From: Bacteroidia bacterium
GTDB lineage: Bacteria; Bacteroidota; Bacteroidia; UKL13-3
Direction of reading: 5' to 3'
DNA: 64,000 nucleotides
Assembly (NCBI GenBank): GCA_018058135.1
Contig: JAGPCK010000004.1
Location: 1 to 64,000, forward strand
Both the position numbers and the translations under genes were made by a program. The notes beneath the pieces were generated by a model that saw only the letters and a program-made list of their open reading frames with translations, ran no database searches and was not told the origin of the DNA. The stretch's first letter is position 1. Each line of letters starts with the position of its first letter. Shown piece after piece: positions 35,443 through 56,333 of the stretch.

Positions 35443-36234
35443 ATGCAACGGGTCATCACGCCATATTATTCTTTATCGCAATCTGTAAGGGATATATTCC
35501 GCTTCAGAAGCCTTATCGGATTCTTCATTTGGCGCGAACTGAAGGTACGCTACAAACACACATTATTGGGAGTACTGTGGTCTGTTATGCAACCTGCCTT
35601 ACTAACGGCAGTATTGTATACAGTGTGGTACAACCAATCTGATACAAAAGAGCATTATCTTCAGCAACTGGTATGGAGCATTTGTTTATGGACCTATATC
35701 AGTAGCAGTTTAAATTATGCCATTAACAGCATTACCTCAAATGAGAAAATAATTAAAAAAAATGCTTTCCCAAGGCTTGTGCTTCCTGTGTCAGCCATTT
35801 TTGTAGCTTTGTTTGAACTGTTCATCAATTGTATGGCTGCGTTTATTTTTCTCAGCATTTACAAGCATCCATTTAACCCATCATTTGCCTTGTTAGACCT
35901 CCAATTACCTGTACTCATTTGTACAATATTATTTTCTCTGGGTGCTGGATTTTGGGTATCCTCCTTAAGTGCAATTTACAAGGATGTGAGGTATGCGCTT
36001 CCTTTTCTTATTCAGCTTGTATTTTTTGTAACACCCGTTTTTTATGAAGTAAGTTCCGATAAAGTAGTGTGGGGACAATGGGTAAATATAAATCCCTTAT
36101 CTGGCATATTTGAAGCCATCAAACACAACTACTCCATGCCTCCGCTATACAGTTGGATGTTTAGTTTAATGTTATGCATAACAGGCATTGTTTTTTTTCA
36201 GCGCAATGAATTTAAAACTAACGATTTGTTGTAA
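35443..36234 (+). CDS. wzm: Polysaccharide ABC exporter permease (Wzm-like)
   Basis: A 263-residue ABC-2 type membrane protein with six helices. The conserved N-terminal amphipathic segment is FFIWRELKVRYKHTLLGVLWSVMQPAL, and later marks are NAFPRLVLPVSAI, DVRYALPFLIQLVFFVTPVFY and NPLSGIFEAI. It forms the channel for lipid-linked O-antigen or similar glycan with the Wzt partner, whose ATG overlaps its stop by one base. Confidence 0.93.
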   Translation: MQRVITPYYSLSQSVRDIFRFRSLIGFFIWRELKVRYKHTLLGVLWSVMQPALLTAVLYTVWYNQSDTKEHYLQQLVWSICLWTYISSSLNYAINSITSNEKIIKKNAFPRLVLPVSAIFVALFELFINCMAAFIFLSIYKHPFNPSFALLDLQLPVLICTILFSLGAGFWVSSLSAIYKDVRYALPFLIQLVFFVTPVFYEVSSDKVVWGQWVNINPLSGIFEAIKHNYSMPPLYSWMFSLMLCITGIVFFQRNEFKTNDLL

Positions 36235-37427
36235 TGTCAGTCGCTTTAAAAATAGAAAACGTATCAAAAAGTTTTAAACGAAGCGGTTATAAACAACCTT
36301 ACAAAAGTTTGCGCGAGGATTTGATGCAACTGTTTGCCCGAAAAACGGAGAAAAAATTTACAGCGCTTGATACCGTTTCTTTTGATGTAAATACTGGCGA
36401 AACACTTGGCATTATAGGCCGAAACGGGGCCGGGAAATCCACCTTACTAAAACTCATATCGGGCATCAGCCTGCCTGACAGTGGTAAAATACACATTAAC
36501 GGCAGTGTAAGTAGCCTGCTGGAATTGGGAACCGGCTTTCACCCTGAGTTAAGCGGATACGAAAACATTCTTTTCAGCGGGGCTCTTTTAGGAATGAACA
36601 AAAAAGAGGTATTGGAAAAAGCGGATGAAATTATTGCTTTTGCAGGGTTGGAAGATTTTATACAAACACCCGTAAAACATTACTCCAGCGGAATGCAATT
36701 ACGGCTGGGGTTTTCAGTGAATGCTCACCTTAATGCAGAGATAATCTTAATTGATGAAGTGCTGGCTGTGGGTGATGCTGCTTTTCAGAAAAAATGTTTC
36801 TCCAAAGTTGATGAAATCAAGCGTTCAGGTAAAACTATTTTACTGGTTAGTCACCAATTGGAGCAAATTAAGAAATACTGCAACCGGGTGATTTGGATGG
36901 ATGAAGGAAAAATAATGGCCGCGGGAAATGCCGAAGAAACCTGTACGCTTTACCTGAATTCACTTACAACTGCAAAACCATTAACAGAAGCTGTTTTCAA
37001 AGGCAGTCTCACAGAAAATATACGCTTTACTACAGTAAGCATAAACGAACGGGAACAGGAACTCCGTTTCTCACCAGCACAAGAGCTTCGTTTCGCTTAC
37101 ACGTTCAAGGTAAACAATGCTTTGTTCTTCAGAAGTGCCGTAAGTGTTTTTAAAGATGATGTCAGGTTGTTTACTCTGCATGATTTTAAAGAAGCGGTGA
37201 ATACTATTGAAGGCACACATCACGTCAGTTTTACTTTACCTGCTCATTTGTTAAGACCGGGACGGTACACCATTGCATTGGGCGGACATGATGCCGAAAA
37301 TACCTATTGGATATGGGGTGAAAATGTTGCCGCCTTTACAATGGATGAAGTATGGGATGAATTAACTGACCCTACCGCTCATGGTATTTTTACTATATCA
37401 ACCGATATTAAACGAACAACGCAGTGA
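36234..37427 (+). CDS. wzt: Polysaccharide ABC exporter ATPase (Wzt-like)
   Basis: 397 residues. The ABC domain (1-240) has Walker A GRNGAGKST at 62-70, signature YSSGMQLRLGFSV and Walker B ILIDEVLAVGD. The C-terminal domain (about 255-397) is an Ig-like glycan-binding module of the Wzt type (LRFAYTFKVNN, PGRYTIALGGHDAEN) that selects a finished glycan end for export. In E. coli O9a such domains read a terminal modification. It is coupled to the permease upstream and to a GTG-start gene downstream. Confidence 0.93.
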   Translation: MSVALKIENVSKSFKRSGYKQPYKSLREDLMQLFARKTEKKFTALDTVSFDVNTGETLGIIGRNGAGKSTLLKLISGISLPDSGKIHINGSVSSLLELGTGFHPELSGYENILFSGALLGMNKKEVLEKADEIIAFAGLEDFIQTPVKHYSSGMQLRLGFSVNAHLNAEIILIDEVLAVGDAAFQKKCFSKVDEIKRSGKTILLVSHQLEQIKKYCNRVIWMDEGKIMAAGNAEETCTLYLNSLTTAKPLTEAVFKGSLTENIRFTTVSINEREQELRFSPAQELRFAYTFKVNNALFFRSAVSVFKDDVRLFTLHDFKEAVNTIEGTHHVSFTLPAHLLRPGRYTIALGGHDAENTYWIWGENVAAFTMDEVWDELTDPTAHGIFTISTDIKRTTQ

Positions 37428-39916: not shown

Positions 39917-40682
39917 TATGAGGCAACCACTTGTTTCTATAGTAACTCCCAGCTACAATCAGGCAAAGTATTTAGAGCAGACTATTATTTCTGTATTGGG
40001 TCAGACTTACCCCAACATTGAGTACATTATCATTGACGGAAAATCAACAGATGGCTCTATTGAACTAATTGAACGATACAAAGACCAATTGACGTTTTGG
40101 GTTAGCGAACCTGATGACGGGCAAACAGATGCTGTAAACAAAGGACTAAAACACTGCAAAGGTGAGTTATTTGCTTTTCTGAACAGTGATGACATTTTAG
40201 AACCTGATGCTGTTGAAAATGCCGTGAATGCTTACCTGCAAAATACAACTCATGCAGTTTACTATGGACAGTGTAGCATCATTGACGAAAAAGGTACGAT
40301 TATTAAAACAGCGCATGGCGGTGAAATAAGCCATGCTCATTTGGTAAACAAAAGTATGCTCCCGCTAATTTACCAACCGGCCTGTTTTTTCAATACCACT
40401 ATTGACTTGCGCCAACCTCTGTTCAGAGAAAAAAACATGATAGATTATGAATTACTACTTTGGCTAAGCAAGCGGTATTCTTTCGCTTATCTTCCTCTAC
40501 CCTTCGCCCGCTACAGAATACATGCACAATCACGAACTCAATTGGAATCTCTTACTATTTATAGGGATAAGCTTCGTATTCAGTTGCACTACGGAGCCGG
40601 TTTAAGAGTTTACTGGAGTATGCTTAAACTAAAATTAAAAGCAGTGCTTGGAATAGTTAAATTCCCAGACGTTTCGAAATAA
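39909..40682 (+). CDS. Family 2 glycosyltransferase
   Basis: A 257-residue GT-A enzyme: SIVTPSYNQAKYLEQTIISVLGQTYPNIEYIIIDGKSTDGS at the start, then FLNSDDILEPDAV with the D-D metal site. No membrane helix is present. It overlaps the preceding glycosyltransferase by 8 bases and the convergent gene at 40657 by 26 bases. Donor unknown. Confidence 0.88.
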   Translation: MNDMRQPLVSIVTPSYNQAKYLEQTIISVLGQTYPNIEYIIIDGKSTDGSIELIERYKDQLTFWVSEPDDGQTDAVNKGLKHCKGELFAFLNSDDILEPDAVENAVNAYLQNTTHAVYYGQCSIIDEKGTIIKTAHGGEISHAHLVNKSMLPLIYQPACFFNTTIDLRQPLFREKNMIDYELLLWLSKRYSFAYLPLPFARYRIHAQSRTQLESLTIYRDKLRIQLHYGAGLRVYWSMLKLKLKAVLGIVKFPDVSK

Positions 40683-41652
40683 AATCTACTATAGGTGCAA
40701 GGTATAGCGGAACATTCCCTGTGTCATATTTTTGTTCAAAATCAGTATCCATAATCCGAGCATCATGTTTAAGAACAGCATCCAAGAAATCATTTTTATC
40801 TGCAATCAATCTACTGCCCGACTCGCGTAACAAGTCACCTAATCCCCCGGCATCATTTCCAACCACAGGTGTGCCCACCAGTATACTCTCATGTGCTACC
40901 CTGTTCCAGCCTTCATTTATCCTGATAAAAGCAACAGTATATAAAGAAGAAGCCATACGTGTAAGATAAGCCTCCGTGGGTTCATACAAAACACTGTAAT
41001 GCTCAAGCTTGCAGGCCACCTGTTCTTGCATAGTAGTGAAGTAACAGAAATAGCCTGCTTCATAAAGTTTTTTGGCTAAATCGAATATTGCTGCATCGTT
41101 TTTAGATGAATATTGACCTAAGTGCACCTGCTTTAACTTGGTGTTTGATTTATATTTCCGGTACTCTTCAACATTAAAAAAATTAGGGTAGTGAAAAACA
41201 GGCACTTTGCCTTTGAACTTAAATGAAAAGAATTGCTGCCAGTAAGGTGCAACAGTTACCACGGCCACTCCTTTTAGAGTATAACTCCTCAATATCCCAA
41301 AAAGTAATTTATAATACCATCTGAGCAGTATACCTTTTCCGTCACGCTCATCAAAATAGTGCATAACTATCAGTATAGCCTTCTTACTGAAAATGCCCCG
41401 TAGTATTGCTGAAAGTGCTAAGCGTGAAGGTACAACCAACACATCTGCTTCAGACTTTTTCCATGCCCAATAAAGTAATCCAAAGTTCTCCAACCCGTGA
41501 AAATACTTTTCCTTTCTGCTAACCTCTGATTTTACATTGGCACCTTTTTCTGAAAAATAACCGGTGAGTGAATGAAACAGGAAATGTTCATGCCTGTTAC
41601 CGCCTGTAGGAATAATCCCACTGGAGAGGTAGGCAAAGAAAACCTTATCCAT
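40657..41652 (-). CDS. GT-B glycosyltransferase, putative
   Basis: 331 residues with a GT-B look. FAYLSSGIIPTGGNRHEHFLFHSL opens the chain, and NEGWNRVAHESILVGTPVVGNDAGGLGDLL is a GT4-type donor site with the conserved glutamate. The middle is divergent. Its ATG overlaps the stop of the C25 peptidase gene by one base, so it is the last gene of the minus-strand operon. It probably acts on the same glycan as that operon's other enzymes. Confidence 0.75.
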   Translation of the reverse strand: MDKVFFAYLSSGIIPTGGNRHEHFLFHSLTGYFSEKGANVKSEVSRKEKYFHGLENFGLLYWAWKKSEADVLVVPSRLALSAILRGIFSKKAILIVMHYFDERDGKGILLRWYYKLLFGILRSYTLKGVAVVTVAPYWQQFFSFKFKGKVPVFHYPNFFNVEEYRKYKSNTKLKQVHLGQYSSKNDAAIFDLAKKLYEAGYFCYFTTMQEQVACKLEHYSVLYEPTEAYLTRMASSLYTVAFIRINEGWNRVAHESILVGTPVVGNDAGGLGDLLRESGSRLIADKNDFLDAVLKHDARIMDTDFEQKYDTGNVPLYLAPIVDFISKRLGI

Positions 41653-44600
41653 TATCTCATTAAATAAATTTTACCTGTATCCTTAACAAAGTAGCTGTCT
41701 AAAGTAGAAGCCCGATGTTTCACTTCCTGCCCTTTATAGCGAACCTGCACCTGATATAGGTATACCCCGTTAGCTAAACGGTCGCCAAATTGATCTGTGC
41801 CATCCCAGGCAAACTGCGAGATGTTATTACCTATCCTTAATGGTCCCAGCTCAGCTGATGATATTTCCCGCACAATCTTGCCTGTTAAGGTCATGATTTT
41901 AATGCGAATATTATCCGGCACATCACTACCAGTTAACGTGAATACAAACTTCATACTGGTAGTAAAAGGATTAGGATAAGGTACAAAATGAGTAATACTC
42001 GACTCATTAATTACATTAAATTTAATGGAATAAGGTTTACTACCTGATGGATTGCCTGAAGCGTCTCTTACATATACCTGCAACTCGTGTAAACCATCGG
42101 CTAATCTATCGGGGCGGAATATTACTTTTGCCTCAGTAGAATTCACTGATGCGGGTATAAAAATTACATTGGGTGAACTAAAACTAAGTACTTCCGGCAT
42201 CAACGACTTTGGCGGCTGGTAAAGTATAATAATAGAGGTAGTATCTTTTATTTTGAGGTACTGGTTATCATCTTTAGCTACAATTGTAATTTGCGGAGTA
42301 GGCGACACTATATCTCCGTTCATAATTCTTATTCCATCAAACAATACATCTACTAATGGATTAGTCTTGTCATTTTTAACCTGTATAGGAAATGATATGG
42401 AGTTATTATTAAGCGTATATTCGGGTTGAGCTAAATCATAGTTTACAGATACAACCATTGAATTTAGACCTGAAAGCCCTAAGCTATTTAGTGAGTAATT
42501 GACTACTGCTGTATCGCCTTTAGGAAGACCGGCAATACGTTTAATTTCTGACTTTATCGTTTGCCTGTTTTGGTTCACAACGGAGTATTTGACATCAATA
42601 CTATCAAATGGTTGTGTACTTATATTTTCAAACGAATACTTTAGTAGTATATCTTCTCCCTCTTGAATATTTATTTTCGGAGCCTGCAATTGCCAGCTTG
42701 TATTAACGTAACCTTCAGGTAGCGGTTCGTATGTTACCATCCAGTATTTTAACTCCGGAGGTGTTCTTACCAACTTATCATACACATTGGCTTTAAGCTT
42801 AACATAAGGATATTCAACAGCATCAATAAAACTGATATCAGCCGAATCGAGCGCATTGACGGTAAATACCAGCGAATCAGTTCCTGCTTTTGTTCTGACG
42901 AAAAAATCTATCAAAATACTGTCCTTTTCCTGATGACCTACAGGTGCAAAACTACAGTAAACATTTCCCCATGATTTGGCCGGGCCAATATATTTTGATG
43001 TAAGACTACCCTGATACCAACTGCCTTTTGCCACATATTTAGCTGTGGCAATAAAGGTATCAACAGGTGAAGGCGTAGGATTATATGTGATTTGCTCTTG
43101 TGCATCACCTGTGCTTCCACCTTTTTTGCCCACTAAGGAGAATGCCATGCTATCGTTTGTAAAACTTCGTATCTGAGCTGACCCAAGTTTTTCAATAGCT
43201 TTGTAAACTTTCTCATCCCAAACAGAAGGTTTAGCATCATATCTGGAGATAAGTGCCACATAGTCTCCCTCCTGAATAGTATCAATAAATCGGGCAAATT
43301 CATCCTGCCCTTCTACTGTAGCTGTATTGAAAGTATAATAGTAAATACCTGCAGGAGCTACTGAGATATTAAAATTAATAAGCCATGAACAATTGAGTGG
43401 ATACTTATGCGCCAATTCATTTGATAAAGAACGTTTGTCAAAAACAATAGCCAATAATCCTCCAAACATACAGTTACCTACCAATGGATTGAGAAACTGA
43501 GAGGTAGATGTTTTAATTCCCAAGTTTCCATGCCTCCATCTGGCAGTATATGCTTCAATAGTTTCATCTATCGGAACAAATTCCCACTTTCTATTTACTG
43601 TATCCATGAAAACTTCATTACCTTCAATGGATAATTGTTGATAATAGTCTGATTGCACCCATCCCTCCTTTCCGTTTTTCATGTAAGTAAAAGACGCCAT
43701 TTGCCAGCTTCCACCTTCATTAACAGGCAGGTTGAGTCTTACTCTCCAGTGAAAAACAAGGCTATCCTTATCAGGCAACTGTAACGCCCATCTGGCAAGG
43801 GATCCAACAGATGTAATTACCCCTGAAGATCTGAAAAAGGCTGATGATGGATTAAAGGAAGGAGAAGTATCTACTTCGAAAATAAATGATTCAGAACTAG
43901 CAAAAATATTTTGAGATTGCACCTTAAAATGAACATTCCTATCTGTAACTACGGCATAGTTATATGGCGAAATTATATATAATGAATTACCTGGCATAAA
44001 AAAGTTTATGCTGGCGGTATTGTTGCTCTCAATACCCTCATTGGTTTGTTGTTCGGGATCAATGGTTACTGTAAACTGATTTTGTCCGGCTGTAGTTGCA
44101 TCTTTTGATTTGATATAGAATAAAAGTGTATCAGTATTAAAAACTGGAGCAAACATTTTATTCATTAATATACTTCCACCATTAGGAAGTTTACGTTGAA
44201 CCAGCACTTTTATTGAATCTTCAACAGCTTTACCCTGATTTTTTAATATAATGGCAACAGCAAATGAATCACTTGTAGAAGATGTAGTAGATGGTGTAAT
44301 AAAAATATCAGCATTAGAAATGGTATAATCCGGTAAAGCCGGAGTGTAATGTCTATATGCGGGATCTCCCAAAAAAATTAGCTGTTGATTGTGACAATTG
44401 CTAACCTCATCGCCCGGTACTATTGTTCTAGCCATTGTAGTTCTAACTGCTTCAGCTATGGAACTGCCGTAATTGTCTTTAAAAAAGTTACTATAAAAAG
44501 CATTTGTCTGTGCACTCAGATTAGTTATAATTGATGTGTTGGAATGCGCCATCCAGCCTATAGCTCCTTTATCTTTAGCCAATATATAGGCCGCTCCGTT

Positions 44601-46643
44601 TATTCCTATTGTAGTTACTCCCCCTGTTAAATCAGCACTTATGTTACCAACGTTACACCCATTAAAATACATAACGGGGTATTTATCTTTGTTTGATAAA
44701 TCATTATGGTTACCAATATCTATGTCTAAAATATTTAATGAACCATGCCCGTAAAAAGTGAGAAAACCCAACCCACTGTTTATACTTTGAAGAATCTTTT
44801 GCTTGAGATTGGTCTCCACCGGTGATGTTGTTGATTTGAAAAAGCTGTTTACTTTAGCACCCATATAACGCCCCTCTGCAATTTTTCTAATTAACTCCAG
44901 ATTAGAAGAAATGAGATTTTGCTGAGACAATCCTTCCCCACCACCAAGATGCAAAATGTTTTTTCTCCATAACTGAATGGAGTCGGAACGATTTTCCATA
45001 AAAATTAACTTTTGCAGGTAATTATCTACTTCCTGATTAGTCAATGCCGGAATACGTCCTGTGGGAATAGCCGGTTCATAAGGTGAAGCCCCACCCAACC
45101 CGTTAGTAAACATTACATCTGAGGAAGGCACTCCTATTTGAGGAACAAGATTGAGCCAGTTATGCTGAGGCAATCGAACGTAATCATGTTGCAAACCACG
45201 ACCCAAAAGCAACAAATAACCTGGGGCTGAATCTTGTTTGGTAATTAAATAATCTGCCAGATGTCTTATCGCTAAAGGATGGTGAACTCCGAAAGTAAAT
45301 GTATTCTCAATTTGCTCAGTGGTGAGCAACAAAACATTATAGCGTTGAGCTCTATACTGTGCGTATTCTGTTGCCTTTGGAAGAAGTGTTTTATGGGTAA
45401 CTATAATAAAATCGAAATGCTGTGTAGTATCAATATTGGCGAATTGAACAGGCTCTAACAGAGTTAGAGTTCTAACGTCTATACTATCAAAGAGTACCAG
45501 GCTATTCCCTGAAACATTTCTTTTCAGTAGGAACCTGAGTTGATTTCCATTAAAATTTCCTGGAATACGATTGAGTGATGTTAAATCATACAATACTGGC
45601 GAAGAACCTGAATAATTCGAAAACTGGAGGAATACATCGCTTGCTGTAGATGTAGTACGAATATTCAACTCTGTGTATGTAGTAGAAAAAAGATCAAAAT
45701 TCTTTGGGTATGTTAATTCCGCATAGGAAACAGTACCACCGTCTACAGTGGATGTAAGGTCATCTATGTATGTAAATCGAAAATAGGTATTACTCCCCCC
45801 TATCATAGAAGAAGGAATAGGTATTGACTTCTGAAAAGATGTATACCCCTCATAAATGGTATCAAATACAGTAGAATAGGAAGAATTATCTGTGCTCAAT
45901 CTAAGCAGATGATGGTGATCAGGGTTGGCATTGCTGTAATCAGATACTCCTGATAAGCGAAATTTCAAAACCGGTTCAGGCCCTGCTGAAAAATAGCCTT
46001 TTGTAGCCAATGGAAAATTCAAATCATTGAAGTTTTTACCAAATCGAATACTACTCCAGCCTTCCCCTTCTAAATATTCAGAAGAGTGGTAATTGTATTC
46101 ACTGATGATTGGTTGTCCAAAATAATATGTATGATCAAATCGCTGTATCTCTTTTTGGAGATAATATGGCTCAGGAGTAAAAGCCCCGAAATTAGTATTA
46201 CTATACGAAGAAAAGTGAAAAGTCGATGGACTAGTGCCCCATGTTATATAAACCAAAGAGGTGTCAGATATTGAGCTCACGTATGGATTAAGAAAAGATG
46301 AAGTATCTTTGTAAAGGTACTTATCAAAAGAGCCATCAGTTCTCTTGGCGTAAAACTCAATATAGTCTCCTGTATCAAAAGTGCCATCAGCCTCTCCACT
46401 CACAAATACAGGCAATTCTTTTCCAAACTGAATAACCTGAATATTTCTCGGATCAATAGAACCCACCGCAATTCCGGAGTTGGTAAATGAACTCAGATTT
46501 ATACGGTAAATTCCGTTTTGCCAAATAACCACCTTGTAATGGGGTTGGCCTTGTTTTATCCACTCATTTCCGAATACTTTTTGAGCATTGGCTTTGCTAT
46601 ACAACAAGGCAAATAAAATATATACGAAAGGTTTAAGGTTCAT
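41652..46643 (-). CDS. C25 (gingipain-like) peptidase resembling T9SS sortase PorU
   Basis: 1663 residues. A signal peptide (1-20) precedes an N-terminal domain (IWQNGIYRINLSSF, SIDPRNIQVIQFGKELP, DGTFDTGDYIEFYAK) like that of PorU. The C25 domain (about 405-790) has a candidate catalytic dyad: H633 (YGHGS) and C663 (FNGCNVGN). CARDB- and Ig-like segments follow, and a FlgD/sorting-like end (YPNPFTTSMKF ... GKIYLMR). PorU is usually 1100-1300 residues, so this is an enlarged paralogue (compare 'PorU2'). It lies among glycosyltransferases and is coupled to the one at 40657. Catalysis is unproven. Confidence 0.85.
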   Translation of the reverse strand: MNLKPFVYILFALLYSKANAQKVFGNEWIKQGQPHYKVVIWQNGIYRINLSSFTNSGIAVGSIDPRNIQVIQFGKELPVFVSGEADGTFDTGDYIEFYAKRTDGSFDKYLYKDTSSFLNPYVSSISDTSLVYITWGTSPSTFHFSSYSNTNFGAFTPEPYYLQKEIQRFDHTYYFGQPIISEYNYHSSEYLEGEGWSSIRFGKNFNDLNFPLATKGYFSAGPEPVLKFRLSGVSDYSNANPDHHHLLRLSTDNSSYSTVFDTIYEGYTSFQKSIPIPSSMIGGSNTYFRFTYIDDLTSTVDGGTVSYAELTYPKNFDLFSTTYTELNIRTTSTASDVFLQFSNYSGSSPVLYDLTSLNRIPGNFNGNQLRFLLKRNVSGNSLVLFDSIDVRTLTLLEPVQFANIDTTQHFDFIIVTHKTLLPKATEYAQYRAQRYNVLLLTTEQIENTFTFGVHHPLAIRHLADYLITKQDSAPGYLLLLGRGLQHDYVRLPQHNWLNLVPQIGVPSSDVMFTNGLGGASPYEPAIPTGRIPALTNQEVDNYLQKLIFMENRSDSIQLWRKNILHLGGGEGLSQQNLISSNLELIRKIAEGRYMGAKVNSFFKSTTSPVETNLKQKILQSINSGLGFLTFYGHGSLNILDIDIGNHNDLSNKDKYPVMYFNGCNVGNISADLTGGVTTIGINGAAYILAKDKGAIGWMAHSNTSIITNLSAQTNAFYSNFFKDNYGSSIAEAVRTTMARTIVPGDEVSNCHNQQLIFLGDPAYRHYTPALPDYTISNADIFITPSTTSSTSDSFAVAIILKNQGKAVEDSIKVLVQRKLPNGGSILMNKMFAPVFNTDTLLFYIKSKDATTAGQNQFTVTIDPEQQTNEGIESNNTASINFFMPGNSLYIISPYNYAVVTDRNVHFKVQSQNIFASSESFIFEVDTSPSFNPSSAFFRSSGVITSVGSLARWALQLPDKDSLVFHWRVRLNLPVNEGGSWQMASFTYMKNGKEGWVQSDYYQQLSIEGNEVFMDTVNRKWEFVPIDETIEAYTARWRHGNLGIKTSTSQFLNPLVGNCMFGGLLAIVFDKRSLSNELAHKYPLNCSWLINFNISVAPAGIYYYTFNTATVEGQDEFARFIDTIQEGDYVALISRYDAKPSVWDEKVYKAIEKLGSAQIRSFTNDSMAFSLVGKKGGSTGDAQEQITYNPTPSPVDTFIATAKYVAKGSWYQGSLTSKYIGPAKSWGNVYCSFAPVGHQEKDSILIDFFVRTKAGTDSLVFTVNALDSADISFIDAVEYPYVKLKANVYDKLVRTPPELKYWMVTYEPLPEGYVNTSWQLQAPKINIQEGEDILLKYSFENISTQPFDSIDVKYSVVNQNRQTIKSEIKRIAGLPKGDTAVVNYSLNSLGLSGLNSMVVSVNYDLAQPEYTLNNNSISFPIQVKNDKTNPLVDVLFDGIRIMNGDIVSPTPQITIVAKDDNQYLKIKDTTSIIILYQPPKSLMPEVLSFSSPNVIFIPASVNSTEAKVIFRPDRLADGLHELQVYVRDASGNPSGSKPYSIKFNVINESSITHFVPYPNPFTTSMKFVFTLTGSDVPDNIRIKIMTLTGKIVREISSAELGPLRIGNNISQFAWDGTDQFGDRLANGVYLYQVQVRYKGQEVKHRASTLDSYFVKDTGKIYLMR

Positions 46644-46687
46644 CGGGTTAAATTCGATTCGAATATAACGAAAATGCCAAAATTACA

Positions 46688-47449
46688 CTACTTGGTTTTT
46701 AGTAAGAAATGTGTAAAATATTGAGGAATTTTGCGAAGTGGTTTAATCCATAATGTAAAAAAAAACGGAGTAATACCATTTAATTGCCAAGCTTTCCTAT
46801 CTTCTTTGTTAGCTTGAAGTCGGTTGGCCATAGTAACGTTACTTTTACCACCTGAACGCATTTTTACTAATATTTCAGGCCAGTAAACAGGCTCTACTCC
46901 GTACTTATGAATGAATCTCAACATCAGTTCATAGTCTGCAGCCGAGCGTAATTGTGTGTTAAATGTTCCGAATTTGTTATACACCTCTTTTCGAACAAAA
47001 AAGGATGGATGAGGAGGCATCCAGCCCCATTTAAAGCTACCCGCGAAATAATGCCCCGATTTCCAATATCGGCTGATTTTATTAATAGCACTTTGCTGAA
47101 CATAAACCAGATCACCGTACAAAGCATCAGAATCTTTCATTTTTTCTGCTACACCACTAATTACACCCGGAAAAGCATATACATCATCTGCATGAAGAAA
47201 TGCGATAACATCACCTGTTGCTATTTCGATACCTTTATTTAACGCATGATACATTCCTTCATCGGGCTCTGAAATTAATTTTGAAATACCCGATTTATAT
47301 TTCTGCAGTATACCCAACGTACCATCCTTTGAAGCACCATCGATAACAATGTATTCTAATTGCGGGTAATCCTGATTAAGTACAGATCTTACAGTATCTT
47401 CAATGGTAGAAGCAGAGTTATAACAAACGGTAATAACAGAGACTTTCAC
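46688..47449 (-). CDS. Family 2 glycosyltransferase
   Basis: A 253-residue GT-A enzyme of the WcaA type: VSVITVCYNSASTIEDTVRSVLNQDY at the start, IDGASKDGT, and FLHADDVYAFPG with the metal-binding aspartates. GTG start at 47449, 2 bases after the carbamoyltransferase stop, so the two are coupled. The C terminus (PFFFTLWIKPLRKIPQYF) is a basic amphipathic tail that may touch the membrane. Confidence 0.88.
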   Translation of the reverse strand: MKVSVITVCYNSASTIEDTVRSVLNQDYPQLEYIVIDGASKDGTLGILQKYKSGISKLISEPDEGMYHALNKGIEIATGDVIAFLHADDVYAFPGVISGVAEKMKDSDALYGDLVYVQQSAINKISRYWKSGHYFAGSFKWGWMPPHPSFFVRKEVYNKFGTFNTQLRSAADYELMLRFIHKYGVEPVYWPEILVKMRSGGKSNVTMANRLQANKEDRKAWQLNGITPFFFTLWIKPLRKIPQYFTHFLLKTK

Positions 47450-47451
47450 GA

Positions 47452-49179
47452 TTATCTGCTAACAACACAATTCTCAAGTACCAGCATATCCATTTGTGTT
47501 CGCAAATAACAATTCAATGCCTCCTGCGGAGTATTCACAATAGGTTCGTTCTCATTAAATGATGTATTGAGAAGAATTGGAACTCCTGTTTTCTGCCGGA
47601 ATGTTTCTATCAATGCATAGTATCTTGGCGATACATTACGATCAACTGTTTGCAAGCGGCCTGTACCATCTACATGCGTTACTGCAGGAACTTGCTGATG
47701 TTTCTCCGGTTTAATGGGAAAAACTTTTTCCATAAATGGCACTTCATCTGTTACCTCAAAATATTCACTCACATATTCTTTTAAAATAGATGGAGCAAAC
47801 GGCCTGAAACTCTCTCTTCGTTTAATTTTGGCGTTGAGCAAATCTTTTGCATCAGTTCGTCTGGGGTCAGCAATAATGGATCTTCCACCCAATGCTCTGG
47901 GGCCAAACTCAGCCCTGCCCTGAAACCAGCCTACTACTCCTGCATTAACCAGCCTTTCAGTTACCAGTTGATAAAGTTCTTCATCAGAATAACGTGTGTA
48001 CTGCACATTATTTTCTTTAAGTACAGTTTCAATCTGTTCATTGCTAAAATGACTTCCCGTATATGCTGAATAAACCGCCTCAACGCGAGGTTTGTTTAGA
48101 ACATTATGATAATAATACATTGCTGAACCTGCAGCAATGCCCGCATCATGGCCTGCACTGGGTATATAAACCTTTTTGAATGGAGTGTTGCGTGTTATCT
48201 TACCGTTAGCTACTGAATTTTGAGCTACCCCTCCGGCAATACATACTTGATCCAGTCCTGTTTTCAGGTGCAGATGAGTAAGCAAGTGGAATATGGTATC
48301 TTCCGTTACCCGTTGAACTGATGCTGCTAAATCACGGTGAAGCTGACTCAGCTCTTCTCCTTTGACTCTCAACGGACCGAAAGTCTCTATCATCCTATCT
48401 GAAAAAATACGGTTATGAGAAGGGTCGTTATTTTCTAATATATGTGTTTTTACGCCAAGAGTATGGTGAGTAAAGTAATCAAGGTTTAACTGAAACAAAC
48501 CATCGGGTGTAGTTTGGAGAATCTTCCTTAATTGGTCTACCATAGTTGGTTTACCATAAGGTGCCAAACCCATTACCTTGTACTCATCTCCATAATGAGC
48601 AAATCCTAAGTATTGTGTAAATGCGGTATAAAATATCCCGATAGAATGAGGAAAAAGTACCTGCTCCAATACATTAATGGAAGCATCATTGCCTGTACCA
48701 GTCATGCAGGAAGAATAATCTCCGAATCCGTCTATAGAAAGGAGTGCAGATTGTTCAAAAGGTGATGCGAAAAAAGCACTGGCCAAATGTGCCCGATGAT
48801 GCTCTATATTAAATATAATATCTCCGAAAGAACTTTTGGCTTCAGGAAAAAACTTACGAAAATCATCTTCTATTGATCCTACCTTCATGCTATTCTTGAA
48901 ACGCTCTAACAACCAAGGAATGTTGGCTTTACCACTCAGAACCCTTTTCAGTTTCTTCATTTGGTGGGCCTTTGGATCTCTACCTATGGCAATTCCATCA
49001 AGGTCATTTATGGTGATACCCGCATCTGACAGACAAGCTTTAATAGACAATTGGGGGAAACCGGCCCAATGTTTAAACCGGGTAAAACGTTCTTCTTCAA
49101 AGGCACAAATAAGGCGCCCATCTTTAAGCAAGGCAGCAGAAGAATCTCCGTGATAGGCGTTAAGTCCCAGTATGTACAT
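47452..49179 (-). CDS. Carbamoyltransferase (NodU/CmcH/TobZ family)
   Basis: A 575-residue enzyme that transfers a carbamoyl group from carbamoyl phosphate, through carbamoyladenylate, to a hydroxyl. The N-terminal Kae1-like domain has ILGLNAYHGDSSAALLKDG, EHHRAHLASAFFASPF and GFGDYSS. The C-terminal domain has QGRAEFGPRALGGRSIIADPR. The acceptor is probably a sugar of the local polysaccharide, inferred from context. It opens a subgroup of the minus-strand operon after a 132-base gap and has its own promoter-like element. Confidence 0.92.
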   Translation of the reverse strand: MYILGLNAYHGDSSAALLKDGRLICAFEEERFTRFKHWAGFPQLSIKACLSDAGITINDLDGIAIGRDPKAHQMKKLKRVLSGKANIPWLLERFKNSMKVGSIEDDFRKFFPEAKSSFGDIIFNIEHHRAHLASAFFASPFEQSALLSIDGFGDYSSCMTGTGNDASINVLEQVLFPHSIGIFYTAFTQYLGFAHYGDEYKVMGLAPYGKPTMVDQLRKILQTTPDGLFQLNLDYFTHHTLGVKTHILENNDPSHNRIFSDRMIETFGPLRVKGEELSQLHRDLAASVQRVTEDTIFHLLTHLHLKTGLDQVCIAGGVAQNSVANGKITRNTPFKKVYIPSAGHDAGIAAGSAMYYYHNVLNKPRVEAVYSAYTGSHFSNEQIETVLKENNVQYTRYSDEELYQLVTERLVNAGVVGWFQGRAEFGPRALGGRSIIADPRRTDAKDLLNAKIKRRESFRPFAPSILKEYVSEYFEVTDEVPFMEKVFPIKPEKHQQVPAVTHVDGTGRLQTVDRNVSPRYYALIETFRQKTGVPILLNTSFNENEPIVNTPQEALNCYLRTQMDMLVLENCVVSR

Positions 49180-49200
49180 TTTTTATTAAACTAATTGATG

Positions 49201-49208
49201 CGAAAATA
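49201..49208 (-). promoter_or_regulatory. Promoter-like TATTTTCG before the carbamoyltransferase
   Basis: Minus-strand TATTTTCG lies 21 bases before the ATG at 49179 and differs from TAnnTTTG at one position. Confidence 0.35.
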
Positions 49209-49224
49209 GTGTGATAAACATAAG

Positions 49225-49254
49225 TAACAGAATCGAAACCGAACAATTCTGTTA
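49225..49254. promoter_or_regulatory. Inverted repeat upstream of the carbamoyltransferase
   Basis: Perfect 9-bp arms TAACAGAAT (49225-49233) and ATTCTGTTA (49246-49254) with a 12-base spacer. It covers the region where a -33 element would lie. No T-run follows, so an operator is more likely than a terminator; a 9-bp repeat could also be chance. Confidence 0.3.
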
Positions 49255-49311
49255 ACCTCATACCCACCTAACACTTAAAGTTTGATAATCAATACACTAA
49301 TAAAACTCCTG

Positions 49312-50475
49312 TTAAACATTTTTACCCTCAAACATAGCCAGATAGTTCTTTTTTAATGATTCGATATCTGTTTTAAAGTCGAAATATTTTCTGGCTCCGT
49401 CTTTGAATGAAGCATACTCATGTGCATTCATTTGAGCGCACTTCTCAATTTTTTGTGTCCACAACCTACTATCTGCAATATCAATACTGAAGCCTGCAGT
49501 ATTTGATTCAAGGTTTGTCCATGGTGTATTTTCGGATATAATAACGGGGCACCCGCAACTCAATGATTCGGCAATAACATGTCCGTAATTTTCATGTAAT
49601 GTTGGCAAGACCATGAAATGATAAGATGCAAAATCAACCTGTTCAACATGGGCATTCACTGCACCTTTGTAATTTACCTGAATATGTGGTGGTGAATCCA
49701 TAATGAGACTAATACACTTTTGCCAATAGTTTTGATCTTCTATGGGGCCATATATATCCAATGCAACTCTATATGCTGAATTCACATCAGCCAATGCTTT
49801 TAAAACCAGTTCTAAGTTTTTAATCGGTAATATTCTGGAGTAAAATAGTAAGCTCAGATTGCCTATTTCTTTGTCAATTACTATTGAGGATGTTTGACCT
49901 ACAATAGGTATGTTGGGAATGGTATAAACATCATCTGTAAGTAAAAACCGTAAACCTATTGCGTCCTTTTCATCGCTATTGGTAGCGTGCCAAGTGATGT
50001 TTTTATATAATTTTAACACTCTGATAAACGAGAAAAACAACTCTTTCTTAAACTTCTTAACATTAACAGTAGTATCACCAAGCATTCCTCGGGGACACAC
50101 AATAACTTTAGCCGATATCAAGTTAAGCCTTTTAATAAGAACAGGGAAAAAGCTGAACCAGAAAGAGAACACCCCATTGACATATATTACTTCGGGCTCT
50201 TCTTGTTTAATAATCTGACTTATAGTAAAAAACCTACGCCATGTTTTACTTAAATAGTAAATTTTCACATTCAGGTTGCTATTTATTACACCTTTATCCA
50301 ACAAAACACCCTTGAATGAACTTGTATCGGCTATATCCCTGTCGCCTGTTACAATTACTATGTCCAATTCATTTCCTAAATTTTGAATAAGTGCTAACAT
50401 TGATGTAATAGGCCCTCCTGCTTTGTATGCAGGGAGAAACCAGTCTACAAAAACAAGTACTTTTATTTTATTCAC
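49312..50475 (-). CDS. Family 4 glycosyltransferase
   Basis: A 387-residue GT-B enzyme: VFVDWFLPAYKAGGPITSMLALIQNLG at the start, LLFYSRILPIKNLELVLKAL in the donor half, and FMVLPTLHENYGHVIAESLSCGCPVIISENTPW, the GT4 E-x7-E region. GTG start at 50475, overlapping the asnB stop by 8 bases. The N-terminal AGGP motif is typical of sugar-polymer GT4 enzymes of Bacteroidota. Donor unknown. Confidence 0.88.
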   Translation of the reverse strand: MNKIKVLVFVDWFLPAYKAGGPITSMLALIQNLGNELDIVIVTGDRDIADTSSFKGVLLDKGVINSNLNVKIYYLSKTWRRFFTISQIIKQEEPEVIYVNGVFSFWFSFFPVLIKRLNLISAKVIVCPRGMLGDTTVNVKKFKKELFFSFIRVLKLYKNITWHATNSDEKDAIGLRFLLTDDVYTIPNIPIVGQTSSIVIDKEIGNLSLLFYSRILPIKNLELVLKALADVNSAYRVALDIYGPIEDQNYWQKCISLIMDSPPHIQVNYKGAVNAHVEQVDFASYHFMVLPTLHENYGHVIAESLSCGCPVIISENTPWTNLESNTAGFSIDIADSRLWTQKIEKCAQMNAHEYASFKDGARKYFDFKTDIESLKKNYLAMFEGKNV

Positions 50476-52339
50476 TTACGTTATTCTTTCTCAACCACTC
50501 CTCCAGCACTACTATCTGCCAAATACGAGACCAATTAATACTCTTATCTTCTGCAATGAATCTATTCCATAATTCTTTAATTGCATTTTCTTTGACGAAA
50601 GCTCTTAAAGCAAAGCTATTGATACGTTCTTCGCAGAAACTATGAAGTTCATTCTTCATCCAGTATTTCCAGGGGAATACAAATCCTTTTTTGCTTCTGT
50701 TGTATACTTCCTCAGGCAAAATATCCTTTGTGCTTTCTATTAAAAGATTTTTCGCATACTTACCTTTCTTCACATGATCCGGTAATCCCATTACATAACT
50801 TACCAAATTTAAGTCTAGAAAAGGCACTCTGACTTCCAGCCCGTGAACCATACTCATCTGATCAGCATCACGTAGCAACGTATCTGTCATGTATGTATTC
50901 ATCTCAAAATAACTGGTCAAAGAAAGAATGTTATCCTGATTTCCGTTACGAAAACTACTTGAAACGCCTTGTAATGAATTAAATTTCAGATTAACATCTT
51001 TGAGCAAGTCTTCGATTTGATGATCTAAATAAGTTTGTCTGCTTAACAACAGAAAATTGTCAATATAATTTTCTCCACCTTTAAAAGACTCAGCTAATTT
51101 CAAAAAATAATTCTTTGATGTGAGTTGGTAGGCTCCCTGAAATAAACCTGTATAAAACGATGAAGGGAATAGTGAAAAAAATGATTCCATTTGCTTCAGC
51201 TTGTCCACTGCACTATAAACAGGGTATCCGCAAAATATTTCATCACCACCCAAACCGGAAAGTGCAACTTTAATACCTTGTTCCCGTGTTTTTTTAGAGA
51301 TAAGATAAGTGTTTATCCCGTCAGCAGATGGATGATCTAAGGCTTTAAGTGCATCAGGCAGGGATTCCAATAAATCATGAGGGTGAAGTTGAATAGCACT
51401 GTGGTTTGTATTAAACTTTCGGGCAACTAAAGATGAGTATGTACTTTCATCGAAATCTTTCTGACTAAACGTAATTGAAAATGTATTAATACGTTGTGAT
51501 GAAATTTTACTCATAAGTCCTACAACAACACTGGAATCAATTCCACCTGAAAGAAATGCTCCCACCTCAACATCTGCAACCATTTGTTGCTCCATACTTT
51601 TTTCAAGCAAACTCCTAACCTCTTTTGCAGCAGAATGCCTTGTAATATCCGAATTCGCCTTTGTGTGTTGCAAAGTAAAATATCTGTTTTCTTTTATCTG
51701 TTTCCCATCAATTTCAACGTAGGTTCCTGGTTCTAAGACATGAACATTTTGTAGAATTGTACGAGGCGCATGTACACGTTGATACCTGAAAAAATCAACC
51801 AAGCTAACTTGATCAACTTTAGGCTTAAATAATTGTGTAGCTAAAATACCCTTAATTTCAGAGGAAAAAATAAAAGCTTCATTTGTAGTAGAATAATAAA
51901 CGGGTTTTACACCCAAGTGGTCACGTGTTAAAAACAGTTTCTGCTCCACGGTATCCCAAATGGCAAATGCAAAAATGCCCTGTAAGTGCTTTACTACATT
52001 TGGTCCGTATTTAATAAAACCGGCTAAAATTACTTCTGTATCACTTAGAGTTCTAAAGTCGTAATAAGAGCTGAGATCTTTTTTTAGTTGAATGTAATTA
52101 TATATCTCACCATTAAAAACAATTGTGTATCTACCATCTGAAGAAGACATTGGTTGATGACCGGCATTCGAAGTATCAATAATGGAAAGCCTTCTGTGTC
52201 CAAGCGAAATAGCCGCTTCTGTATAGATCCCCTCATCATCAGGCCCTCGATGTGCTATGGCAGTATTCATGAGCTTAACAAGTGAAGTCTTGTCTAATTG
52301 ACTGCCTTTAAAGCTCAAAATACCGTTTATACCACACAT
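50468..52339 (-). CDS. asnB: AsnB-type glutamine amidotransferase
   Basis: 623 residues. The N-terminal class II glutaminase domain starts at the nucleophile C2 (MCGINGILSF) and has AHRGPDDEG and GEIYN. The C-terminal synthetase domain has the pyrophosphate loop SGGIDSS. It may be asparagine synthetase, but in polysaccharide loci members of this family (such as WbpS) amidate uronic acids, and the length and context fit that role. The two cannot be separated by motif alone. It overlaps the following glycosyltransferase by 8 bases and follows another by 4 bases. Confidence 0.88.
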   Translation of the reverse strand: MCGINGILSFKGSQLDKTSLVKLMNTAIAHRGPDDEGIYTEAAISLGHRRLSIIDTSNAGHQPMSSSDGRYTIVFNGEIYNYIQLKKDLSSYYDFRTLSDTEVILAGFIKYGPNVVKHLQGIFAFAIWDTVEQKLFLTRDHLGVKPVYYSTTNEAFIFSSEIKGILATQLFKPKVDQVSLVDFFRYQRVHAPRTILQNVHVLEPGTYVEIDGKQIKENRYFTLQHTKANSDITRHSAAKEVRSLLEKSMEQQMVADVEVGAFLSGGIDSSVVVGLMSKISSQRINTFSITFSQKDFDESTYSSLVARKFNTNHSAIQLHPHDLLESLPDALKALDHPSADGINTYLISKKTREQGIKVALSGLGGDEIFCGYPVYSAVDKLKQMESFFSLFPSSFYTGLFQGAYQLTSKNYFLKLAESFKGGENYIDNFLLLSRQTYLDHQIEDLLKDVNLKFNSLQGVSSSFRNGNQDNILSLTSYFEMNTYMTDTLLRDADQMSMVHGLEVRVPFLDLNLVSYVMGLPDHVKKGKYAKNLLIESTKDILPEEVYNRSKKGFVFPWKYWMKNELHSFCEERINSFALRAFVKENAIKELWNRFIAEDKSINWSRIWQIVVLEEWLRKNNVSE

Positions 52340-52343
52340 AATT

Positions 52344-53348
52344 CTATCTTTTACTTTTCTTAAAAACCTCTTTATATGTTTCCAAATACTGTTGGGCTAT
52401 CACTTTCTTGTCAAACCTTTTCACATTTTCAAACCCATTTGCTATCAGTTCTTCTCTATAATCCTGATTATTTATAATTTTTAAAAAACCGTTTTTAATT
52501 TCATTTACATCATAGGGATTCACTAAACAAGCAGCATTTGCAGCTACTTCAGGCATAGATGTAGTGTTTCCAGTAATTACACAACGACCAGTGGCGTTCG
52601 CTTCTATAATTGGCATTCCAAAACCTTCATATGTGGAAACAAATGAAACAATATCACATTCACGGTAATGCTGGATAATTTCTTCTTCTTTTAAATGCTC
52701 TTCAACCAAAATATGTTGAATCTTGTAATTTTTTAGTTTAACTCTTATCTCATCCCCTACTTTGCCAATTATAGTTAGTTCACAAGGGATGTCTCGAATA
52801 GCTTCCAGCAATCGATCAATATTTTTATTCGGTGCAGTACCTATATGTAAAATTTTAGGTAAACTGGAATTAAAAACATGATCATTTTTTTTGAAATTAT
52901 CTGATATAGAGACGTAAATTACTTTTATCTTTTCCTCCGGGCAATTCGTGTATTTCATCAACTCTTGTTTTGTAGCTTCTGAAATAGTTGTAATCAAAAC
53001 AGATTTATATACAGGCATGTCAAACCAAAAGAACTTTAAAAGGTAATACTTCCAGCCTGTTACAGCTGTTAAAACATTACAATCCAAAAAAGTAATAATC
53101 GTTTTTTTTCTGCTTAAAAATGCTGCCAGAAAAGTTACATCTCCAAGAATGTGATTTACATCTTTCTGATTTAACGCTGCTTCAACAGCATTATAAAACC
53201 TATATAGAAATCCAGCACTTAAATATTTGCACTGCAAAACCTTTATTTCCGCAAGATTCTTTAATTCTAATCGTATTATAGAGAAGTAAATCTCAACACT
53301 AAAGTTTCCCAAGGATCTGGGTTTTCTGGTAAAATGTATAATTTCCAT
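52344..53348 (-). CDS. Family 4 glycosyltransferase
   Basis: A 334-residue GT-B enzyme. The donor half has LPKILHIGTAPNKNIDRLLEAI, IVSFVSTYEGFGMPIIEANATGRCVITGNTTSMPEV with the E-x7-E signature, and CLVNPYDVNEIKNG. The short N-terminal half has ITFLDCNVL and TISEATKQELMKY. No membrane segment. It lies 4 bases upstream of asnB and 17 bases downstream of the Wzy-like gene. Confidence 0.88.
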   Translation of the reverse strand: MEIIHFTRKPRSLGNFSVEIYFSIIRLELKNLAEIKVLQCKYLSAGFLYRFYNAVEAALNQKDVNHILGDVTFLAAFLSRKKTIITFLDCNVLTAVTGWKYYLLKFFWFDMPVYKSVLITTISEATKQELMKYTNCPEEKIKVIYVSISDNFKKNDHVFNSSLPKILHIGTAPNKNIDRLLEAIRDIPCELTIIGKVGDEIRVKLKNYKIQHILVEEHLKEEEIIQHYRECDIVSFVSTYEGFGMPIIEANATGRCVITGNTTSMPEVAANAACLVNPYDVNEIKNGFLKIINNQDYREELIANGFENVKRFDKKVIAQQYLETYKEVFKKSKR

Positions 53349-53365
53349 TTCTACTTCAACTTACA

Positions 53366-54682
53366 TTACCTGACTTTGAATGTTCTTTGCCATTTTACTC
53401 TGAGTGAATGCTCCATAAGCTTCGCCATAATAAAACACCATAAAATAAATGTAGATGTATATAGCAAACTCACCATTTCAAAACTTATAAAAAAAAGTGT
53501 ACTTGTAATAATAAATCTTATAACAACATTTTCCGAAAAATTGTATGCCAACTTATCCAGTTCCCTGAAAAGCAGCATTATAAGCGGTACAAACAAAATC
53601 AACCATTTGTATGAAAAATTAAGAATAAAATCGGCATATATGTTAACTCCCCATGCCGTACTTTCATCTTCCTCACCTATTAAACCCAATCTTCTGGCCC
53701 TTTCTCTATTGTTGTATGTATTAAATGATGGCTTTTCGGCCCACACAACTCTAGGTATTAGCTGAAGAAATATTTCCACGTAAGACATACCATAACGATA
53801 TTCCAAATACCTTTTGTTTATGCCGTTTTGGGCGTATGCCAATTCTCTTCCATAGTTAATGCGTTCTGCGAAGAACATACTTGCAAAAGCTAGGCGTTCT
53901 TCATATGTCAGATTTAAGGTTTTAACAAAAACGCCACCAAGGTTTTCTTTTGTTTTTTCATAATCTATCTTCTTAACCTGTTGAAATGGAAGAACATACA
54001 TAATTCCTACAACGCCCAGAATCACTACTGGAATAATTGCCTTCTTTGATTGTAGCAACAATCCTGAAACTATGGCTCCAAATGCCATAATCAATTCACT
54101 TCTCCACCAGGAAGTAACTGCAAAATACAAACCAACCAAACAAATGAGAAGAGCCAGAAAAACAGACTCTTTCTTTCTGAAGTTGAGCGTATATATGCTT
54201 AATACCATGTTGGGATAAAGAAATGACTTTAAAACAGGAAATACTGTTCCTAACCCTGAACTGCTGATTTCTAACTGAGCCAGTTGGTAACCTGTAATAG
54301 AGAGTATAAAAAAAAGTAGCTTTACTTTATTCAGAAGTCTTTCGTCAGCATGTATCAGATCAATTTCTTCTGTGTTTCGCTCATGTACACGCTTTAATAA
54401 CACTTGTAGGACCAAACTGAACACATAACCAATAATAAAATAAGGCGCTATTTCGGCAAATAGCTTAATAATCATAATACCTGAAACAATTTTATCTGGA
54501 CGTTCGTCAATCTGGTAAAACAAATAGCAAAACGGTCCTATTCCAAGAAACAAAAGGGACATCATATTCAAACCGTTCACTCCTGAAAGAAACGAACTTC
54601 TTTTAGTTGATATGAATACACCAAATATACTTATACAAAGTATTGATAAAGAATATAATACGTATTTAACAAAAATATCCAA
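53366..54682 (-). CDS. Wzy-like polysaccharide polymerase
   Basis: A 438-residue integral membrane protein with about 10-12 helices and a large periplasmic loop (about 255-330; LAFASMFFAERINYGRELAYAQNGINKRYLEYRYG and IPRVVWAEKPSFNTYNNRERARR). LIPRVVWAEKPS is a recurrent motif of oligosaccharide repeat-unit polymerases. It should polymerise lipid-linked repeats in the periplasm, with Wzx supplying them. The start is TTG at 54682; the nearby ATG at 54687 is out of frame. First gene of the minus-strand operon. Confidence 0.78.
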   Translation of the reverse strand: MDIFVKYVLYSLSILCISIFGVFISTKRSSFLSGVNGLNMMSLLFLGIGPFCYLFYQIDERPDKIVSGIMIIKLFAEIAPYFIIGYVFSLVLQVLLKRVHERNTEEIDLIHADERLLNKVKLLFFILSITGYQLAQLEISSSGLGTVFPVLKSFLYPNMVLSIYTLNFRKKESVFLALLICLVGLYFAVTSWWRSELIMAFGAIVSGLLLQSKKAIIPVVILGVVGIMYVLPFQQVKKIDYEKTKENLGGVFVKTLNLTYEERLAFASMFFAERINYGRELAYAQNGINKRYLEYRYGMSYVEIFLQLIPRVVWAEKPSFNTYNNRERARRLGLIGEEDESTAWGVNIYADFILNFSYKWLILFVPLIMLLFRELDKLAYNFSENVVIRFIITSTLFFISFEMVSLLYTSTFILWCFIMAKLMEHSLRVKWQRTFKVR

Positions 54683-54866: not shown

Positions 54867-56333
54867 GTGTTTAAATATTTTATAAAAAATACAGGTTGGG
54901 TGTTGATTGCCAATGTTTTTACAAAATCAATCGGGTTATTATCAATCTCATTTTTATCAAAAATAATTTCATCTGTTGAACTTGGTCTATACAACTCTTA
55001 TTTAAACACCTCTGCTTATATCAATCAAATTGCTGATTTAGGTGCAAGCACTATACTTCAAAAAAGTAGTGCCAATTTTAAACAAGATGCAACATCTAAA
55101 ATAAACCTTGAACAGAAATTATCTGCTGCATTTTTTTTAGGCTTGATTGCCAATATTGTTTTGCTAACAGCAATATTATTCAACATTGACAAATTCTCTC
55201 ATCTTCTGTTTAATCAAAATGTTACAGATTTAACTTATTTGTTAGTATTAATAACAATCATTCAATTCTTTTTTCAAATGCCATCCTATGTATTGATGGG
55301 TATTGGTTACTTTAAATATTATTCGATACGCAATCTATTAACTTCTTCTATATCATTTATAGGGACTACAGTGCTGGCTATGAGTTATGGATTAAATGGA
55401 GCTATATTGGGTTACATGACTGCAACAATTATTAACACGATATACACCTGGAGAATTACATTTATAATATTGAAAAAAGAAGGAATTAACTTCTCTATCT
55501 ATACGTCTTTCAGGCATATTAAATCTTTATTACAAGATGGATTCTGGTTCTATTTCGGGAATACACTGCTTGGGGCTATTTCGGGTTTGTTTACCATCAC
55601 ACTTTTTTCACAATACATTAGTGTTGAAGATTTTGGGTTCTTAAGAATTGCTGCAAGTATTAATGCAATCACAGCTATTATTCCAACAGCTTTATTACCG
55701 GTTACATTGACCATAATTTCCAGAAAATCAAATAAAGATGTTTTTCTCATAAAATCTGTTCAAATTAGGTATGTATTTAGTTCTATTTTTATCTTTACAA
55801 TAGTGCTTTTGATGTTTATTACTCCACTTATTGAATTGCTCTTTAGCAGTGAATACAACAAAGGACTTGAGTTAATATGTCCGTTAATACTCATCAATGT
55901 AATTATTCTTATGCAGGGTATATTCAGTAATTTTCTAATAGCTGAAGGTAAAATGACGTTTTTAGGCACAATATCTACTATTAGCATTATACTTCATATT
56001 GTATTATCATTCACTTTGGTTCCGTTATACGGAAACTTGGGTTATGTTGCGGCATGGCTTATTCCTCAATCAGTTTCACATATAATAACCTCCTTAAAAT
56101 CACTTAGTATCAATGATTTTTACAAAAAACATAAAGAAATAAAAGTGTTCTATCTAGCATTTATTCCTGCTTTTGTGTTCACTATTCTGTTAACATTTTT
56201 GCCGACTGACAGTACGATAAAAACACCGGGCTATCTTGTTGTTATCTCTTTATATTCAATCTTCTTCCTTAGATTTGTAGTATCTAAATATGAAGTTGAA
56301 CTTATAAAATCAAAGTTATACTTATCAAAATGA
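54867..56333 (+). CDS. Wzx-type flippase
   Basis: A 488-residue polysaccharide transporter of the MOP superfamily with about 14 membrane helices. The N-terminal motif WVLIANVFTKSIGLLSISFLSKII is typical, and LGTISTISIILHIVLSFTLVPLYGNLGYVAAWL is the later conserved pair of helices. It moves undecaprenyl-linked repeat units to the periplasm. GTG start at 54867. Divergent from the polymerase gene; its stop overlaps the acetyltransferase start (ATGA). Confidence 0.88.
   Translation: MFKYFIKNTGWVLIANVFTKSIGLLSISFLSKIISSVELGLYNSYLNTSAYINQIADLGASTILQKSSANFKQDATSKINLEQKLSAAFFLGLIANIVLLTAILFNIDKFSHLLFNQNVTDLTYLLVLITIIQFFFQMPSYVLMGIGYFKYYSIRNLLTSSISFIGTTVLAMSYGLNGAILGYMTATIINTIYTWRITFIILKKEGINFSIYTSFRHIKSLLQDGFWFYFGNTLLGAISGLFTITLFSQYISVEDFGFLRIAASINAITAIIPTALLPVTLTIISRKSNKDVFLIKSVQIRYVFSSIFIFTIVLLMFITPLIELLFSSEYNKGLELICPLILINVIILMQGIFSNFLIAEGKMTFLGTISTISIILHIVLSFTLVPLYGNLGYVAAWLIPQSVSHIITSLKSLSINDFYKKHKEIKVFYLAFIPAFVFTILLTFLPTDSTIKTPGYLVVISLYSIFFLRFVVSKYEVELIKSKLYLSK

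Follow-up and report, generated by a model that had tools for sequence, protein, structure and literature searches.

Judged by its sequence, the 1663-residue C25-family protein described here is PorU2, a named NCBIfam family distinct from PorU, and we put at about one in two the probability that PorU2 serves the T9SS as a further attachment enzyme, one that uses a glycan as acceptor, both substrate and acceptor being putative. The gene lies in a window of 64,000 nucleotides (the whole stretch of DNA that was analysed) from a Bacteroidia bacterium; it covers part of the 94-kb contig C66 in a draft genome of 3.02 Mb, 127 contigs and 84% completeness, whose T9SS genes place it in Bacteroidota. 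Against the NCBIfam profile for the putative T9SS sortase PorU2 (NF052324) the protein scores 724.6 bits over 868 residues, where the cut-off is 450, and against that for PorU (NF033707) it reaches 220.5 bits, below the cut-off of 420. The same genome encodes a separate PorU (G000:C45; 1376 bits to NF033707) with PorV after it (503 bits), whereas no porV adjoins the C25 gene in the window. The first-pass annotation of this DNA had called the enzyme PorU-like, and the term stands insofar as this is a PorU-type C25 enzyme with a structural match to PorU (6ZA2), but the family to which it belongs is PorU2.

Of 58 relatives, 55 have a PorU2 that exceeds the cut-off, usually with a length of ~1650-1740 residues; in a sample of 118 genomes from across the phylum, 13 have one. 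The earlier description of the enzyme as enlarged is not borne out, since this is the normal length of PorU2 among the relatives, and the idea of an unusually large protein was rejected. Both in score and in its length of ~1670 residues the window protein is like other members of NF052324, with no family-level difference; what sets the gene apart is its polysaccharide-operon setting, which is absent for most members. The sequence clearly begins with a signal peptide, and the proposed catalytic residues H633 and C663 are both present, as they are in every one of the 52 PorU2 sequences aligned. Two genomes of one genus, G024 and G031, each have two full-length PorU2 genes (L038, L089; L039, L088) placed in different regions of the PorU2 phylogeny. 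The genome G035 encodes a short PorU2-like C25 protein (L090, at G035:C78:50596-52875; 865-894 residues) below the cut-off, besides a full-length copy.

The predicted structure of PorU2 residues 22-885 (pLDDT 91) matches the catalytic domain of the gingipain RgpB with an rmsd of 2.6 over 327 residues (Z 35.5) and PorU of Porphyromonas gingivalis (6ZA2) with a Z of 21.2 over 660 residues; the rmsd to PorU is 8.4, so the domains are probably placed differently. The N-terminal half, the C25 domain and the His-Cys dyad are common to PorU2 and PorU. PorU2 differs from P. gingivalis PorU in having extra FAM3/POMGnT1-stem-like and Ig-like domains and in its partner, which is probably PorV2, not PorV. 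Its C-terminal region falls just below the cut-offs of two profiles, TIGR04183 (22.9 bits, cut-off 23) and PF13860 (24.0 bits, cut-off 27). Comparison of the full-length sequence with the PDB gave nothing useful, and a contig scan with the PorU2 protein found one relative only.

Pfam ILEI (PF15711) matches PorU2 residues 1103-1176, and the same profile is detected in 31 of 48 PorU2 homologues and undetected in the other 17. The predicted model of residues 880-1450 (pLDDT 90.5) extends this match: residues 1025-1208 align with the POMGnT1 stem over 151 residues with a Z of 17.7 and an rmsd of 2.7, and with FAM3C with a Z of 16.1. This relationship emerged from VIA realignment; Foldseek on the 571-residue model returned large multi-Ig proteins, whose TM scores were very low. 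A profile of the PorU2 domain retrieves FAM3C (E 7e-7), and no FAM3/POMGnT1-type match was detected in the PorU of the same genome. The model and the profiles together support a FAM3/POMGnT1-stem fold in PorU2. FAM3C and the POMGnT1 stem are animal domains that bind GlcNAc (PMC9802357). The PorU2 domain has their fold in common (Z 16-18) but is bacterial, lies inside a sortase and has the Arg207-equivalent contact replaced: by our own reading of the alignment, in which an equivalent of Arg129 was not located, the POMGnT1 Arg207 column holds N, D or G, not Arg, and the Asp179 column is mostly N or D. With these differences at the POMGnT1 sugar contacts, it is the fold that suggests that the PorU2 domain may bind a glycan.

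A likely partner for PorU2 is indicated by gene order in other families. PorV2 (NF052325) directly abuts PorU2 in 17 of the 20 PorU2-bearing genomes outside the window's family (459 and 501 bits to the profile for two representatives), and PorV2-type proteins occur in 53 of 58 genomes. Within the window's family, in contrast, PorV2 lies away from PorU2 except in G014, and in the present genome it is found on a separate contig (C70). Three genomes (G038, G052 and G054) have PorV2-type genes, at 270-379 bits to the query, without PorU2 above its cut-off, and the frame in G052 contains a stop. A search of open-access literature gave no papers or biochemistry on PorU2, and its sole match to "PorV2" was PorV plus a printed reference number.

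The gene for PorU2 is embedded in a single tight minus-strand run at 40657-54682, in which every listed gene was found at its coordinates (Table 1) and PorU2 overlaps the GT4-like gene that follows it (TAATG). The glycosyltransferases, AsnB-type enzyme, carbamoyltransferase and C25 protein that had been read from this run are all there, but the polymerase is without profile support, the 438-residue membrane protein having no Pfam or NCBIfam match. A divergent set encodes the Wzx-like flippase, a hexapeptide transferase, an FkbM methyltransferase, glycosyltransferases, an epimerase and a methyltransferase, and after it comes the WecB-type epimerase gene, which is present in the window as had been reported. 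ABC-2 export genes lie at 35443-37427 with other glycosyltransferases around them, and the whole region forms a large surface-polysaccharide locus. Elsewhere in the window, at 9281-11158 and 23349-25601, are two genes whose products carry T9SS sorting domains of type A and are possible cargo.

Table 1. Genes and protein domains of the PorU2 locus, in window positions.
Feature	Position	Strand	Basis
Wzx-type flippase, divergent from operon	54867..56333	+	PF01943, 38.4 bits
Multi-pass membrane protein, 438 aa	53366..54682	-	hydrophobic sequence; Wzy-type polymerase by position only
GT4 glycosyltransferase	52344..53348	-	PF00534
AsnB-type amidotransferase, 623 aa, N-terminus MCGI	50468..52339	-	PF00733, PF13537
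GT4 glycosyltransferase	49312..50475	-	PF00534
NodU-type O-carbamoyltransferase	47452..49179	-	PF02543, PF16861
GT2 glycosyltransferase, directly upstream of PorU2	46688..47449	-	PF00535
PorU2, C25-family putative T9SS sortase, 1663 aa	41652..46643	-	NF052324; PF01364, 198.8 bits
C25 catalytic domain, PorU2 residues 412-764	44352..45410	-	PF01364, E 2.1e-58; RgpB, Z 35.5
Segment of PorU2 with the catalytic dyad, H633-C663	44655..44747	-	dyad in 52/52 aligned sequences
FAM3/POMGnT1-stem-like domain, PorU2 residues ~1025-1208	43020..43571	-	PF15711; predicted model; profile match
C-terminal FlgD-Ig / T9SS-tail-like region, PorU2 residues 1556-1637	41733..41978	-	TIGR04183, PF13860, both sub-cut-off
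GT4-like glycosyltransferase with EX7E motif (P0002)	40657..41652	-	weak GT1/GT4 Pfam matches

We compared PorU2 neighbourhoods across genomes; those without fetched neighbourhoods were counted by coordinates, and all are drafts in which a missing gene may reflect an assembly gap. The GT4-like gene that overlaps PorU2 (P0002) was not found outside the window's family; within it, 28 of 35 genomes have the gene, and its EX7E motif is present in 17 of 18 orthologues, the remaining one being a fragment. Of these 28 genomes, 19 have the gene no more than 5 kb from PorU2, where the chance expectation for 5 kb on either side in a 3-Mb genome is ~0.1 of 28, a contrast that shared ancestry inflates. 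In G026 the distance is ~10 kb, in G025 the two genes may be linked but a contig break lies between them, and in seven genomes the GT4-like gene is on another contig. An orthologue of the GT2 gene (49-54% identity) sits directly upstream of PorU2 in 12 neighbourhoods from five genera, with G032 a 13th genome by coordinates. Thus, the linkage between PorU2 and glycosyltransferase genes persists across genera. On a FastTree phylogeny of PorU2, to which we assigned the synteny labels ourselves, two changes in polysaccharide context are required, such as a single gain and a single loss inside the family.

PorU conjugates cargo to A-LPS that a separate protein, PorZ, presents (PMC8545088). Reasoning from this analogy, we suggest that T9SS cargo at the cell surface is most likely also the target of PorU2, working with PorV2. 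In this mechanism PorU2 would work beside its outer-membrane partner PorV2, its His-Cys dyad would cleave the C-terminal sorting domain from a subset of T9SS cargo, and the new cargo C terminus would be transferred to a glycan acceptor, so that the reaction would be a transpeptidation and not a hydrolysis. The FAM3/POMGnT1-stem-like domain may help to hold the glycan acceptor. In the window's lineage, where porU2 stands at the 3' end of an O-antigen/EPS cluster, the adjoining glycosyltransferase may build or finish that acceptor. A more specific form of this proposal, which we offer as tentative and as less probable than the general one, is that PorU2 pairs with PorV2 in a second T9SS attachment complex, which joins dedicated cargo to a glycan other than A-LPS, with the built-in FAM3/POMGnT1-stem-like domain presenting the acceptor, as is PorZ's job in the known system, and the linked GT4 enzyme completing it.

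Should PorU2 prove to be a second sortase that recognises glycans through a domain of its own, many Bacteroidota would use two parallel routes for attaching surface proteins. The linked glycosyltransferase would then offer a handle on the acceptor, and a named family that is undescribed in the open-access literature searched would gain a function. Even a modest reading of these data corrects a tempting but unsupported analogy with WbpS, which we take up below.

The main rival to a role in glycan attachment is that PorU2 is unrelated to the polysaccharide, a cluster having landed beside its gene and stayed there by inheritance. We regard this as a real possibility, although one that we doubt. 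In most genera, and in all the other families sampled, PorU2 has no polysaccharide genes as neighbours; the first-pass annotation had named such a separation in related genomes as evidence against its proposal, and for most of them it is what we find. Pairs of carbamoyltransferase and GT2 genes, or of GT2 and AsnB genes, also occur in other families with no PorU2 on the contig (G045:C41, G057:C102, G048:C1, G040:C47 and G053:C18), and the AsnB and carbamoyltransferase genes beside PorU2 turn over between genera. Simple inheritance fits less well with the GT4-like gene, which remains next to PorU2 even in genera that have lost or changed the rest of the cluster and in which the orientations differ, or with the GT2-PorU2 order, which has been held in five genera even though PorU2 itself is down to ~35-40% identity.

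An alternative in which PorU2 trims or releases particular T9SS cargo, without joining it to a glycan, appears to us unlikely. There are plain proteases among the C25 enzymes, and the top single-domain match of PorU2 is a gingipain. However, it is the entire N-terminal half of PorU2, not the catalytic domain alone, that matches PorU, the pairing with PorV2 parallels that of PorU with PorV, and the PorU2 gene is linked to glycosyltransferase genes.

The first-pass annotation had proposed that the enzyme may couple cargo to the glycan made by its operon; spelt out, this would be through an amidated diacetamido-uronic-acid sugar, with the AsnB-type enzyme in the role of WbpS within a Wbp/Vim pathway. 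Its premise of a PorU-type enzyme linked to glycosyltransferases survives; the linking-sugar route is not supported. The AsnB-type protein scores 477 on TIGR01536 and 449 on TIGR03108, the score of 449 placing it on the eps_aminotran_1 family, which includes WbpS, and it reaches 312.9 on PRK09431, under the cut-off of 499. We built a tree in which E. coli AsnB and WbqG of E. coli O121 (L135:6314-8206), the latter function-tested, served as references. The window protein and its orthologues from the same genus form a clade of their own, separate from the housekeeping AsnB clade (100/100), so the suggested comparison with asparagine synthetase sets the enzyme apart from the housekeeping group. 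The uronamide-forming WbqG groups with other genes (99/96) and not with the window protein, and on this basis the WbpS link was rejected.

The pairing of the C25 and AsnB genes, whose recurrence had been put forward as a check, is seen in few genomes: an AsnB gene lies within 10 kb of PorU2 in 5, probably 6, of 55 genomes, and those of different genera belong to different, unrelated lineages. A carbamoyltransferase gene is found beside PorU2 only in the window's genus. We therefore rejected both AsnB-PorU2 and carbamoyltransferase-PorU2 as conserved modules. For the WbpA-type UDP-GlcNAc 6-dehydrogenase of the Wbp/Vim pathway, a search of this 84%-complete genome found one UDP-sugar dehydrogenase, of the higher-scoring group present in every genome searched, and no match to a VimA-like FemAB acyltransferase (TIGR03019) was found. 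In P. gingivalis, moreover, a WbpS mutant still attaches cargo (PMC7468200); since WbpS is dispensable for attachment there, an AsnB-type gene is not diagnostic. The AsnB-type, carbamoyltransferase and WecB-type genes are real, but with an AsnB that is outside the WbqG clade and not kept with PorU2, we consider attachment through a WbpS-type amidated uronic acid very improbable. The AsnB-type enzyme and the carbamoyltransferase most likely decorate the polysaccharide, outside any dedicated linking-sugar pathway.

The co-location of a sortase-like enzyme with its anchor-sugar genes had been put forward as not known to be described, but co-location of a sortase-type enzyme with AsnB and glycosyltransferase genes has already been noted for exosortases. 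PEP-CTERM/exosortase EPS loci combine a sortase-type enzyme with AsnB-type and glycosyltransferase genes (PMC7468200), as in the window, so this general kind of co-location is not new. The two arrangements differ in that the exosortase sits in the inner membrane and has no relation to C25, and in that the exosortase loci have VimA-like genes, of the kind for which the window's genome gave no match. Away from PorU2, two other genomes (G057:C102 and G045:C41) have a carbamoyltransferase gene directly beside the GT2 orthologue, just as in the window, and in G057 an AsnB-type gene lies close to that pair.
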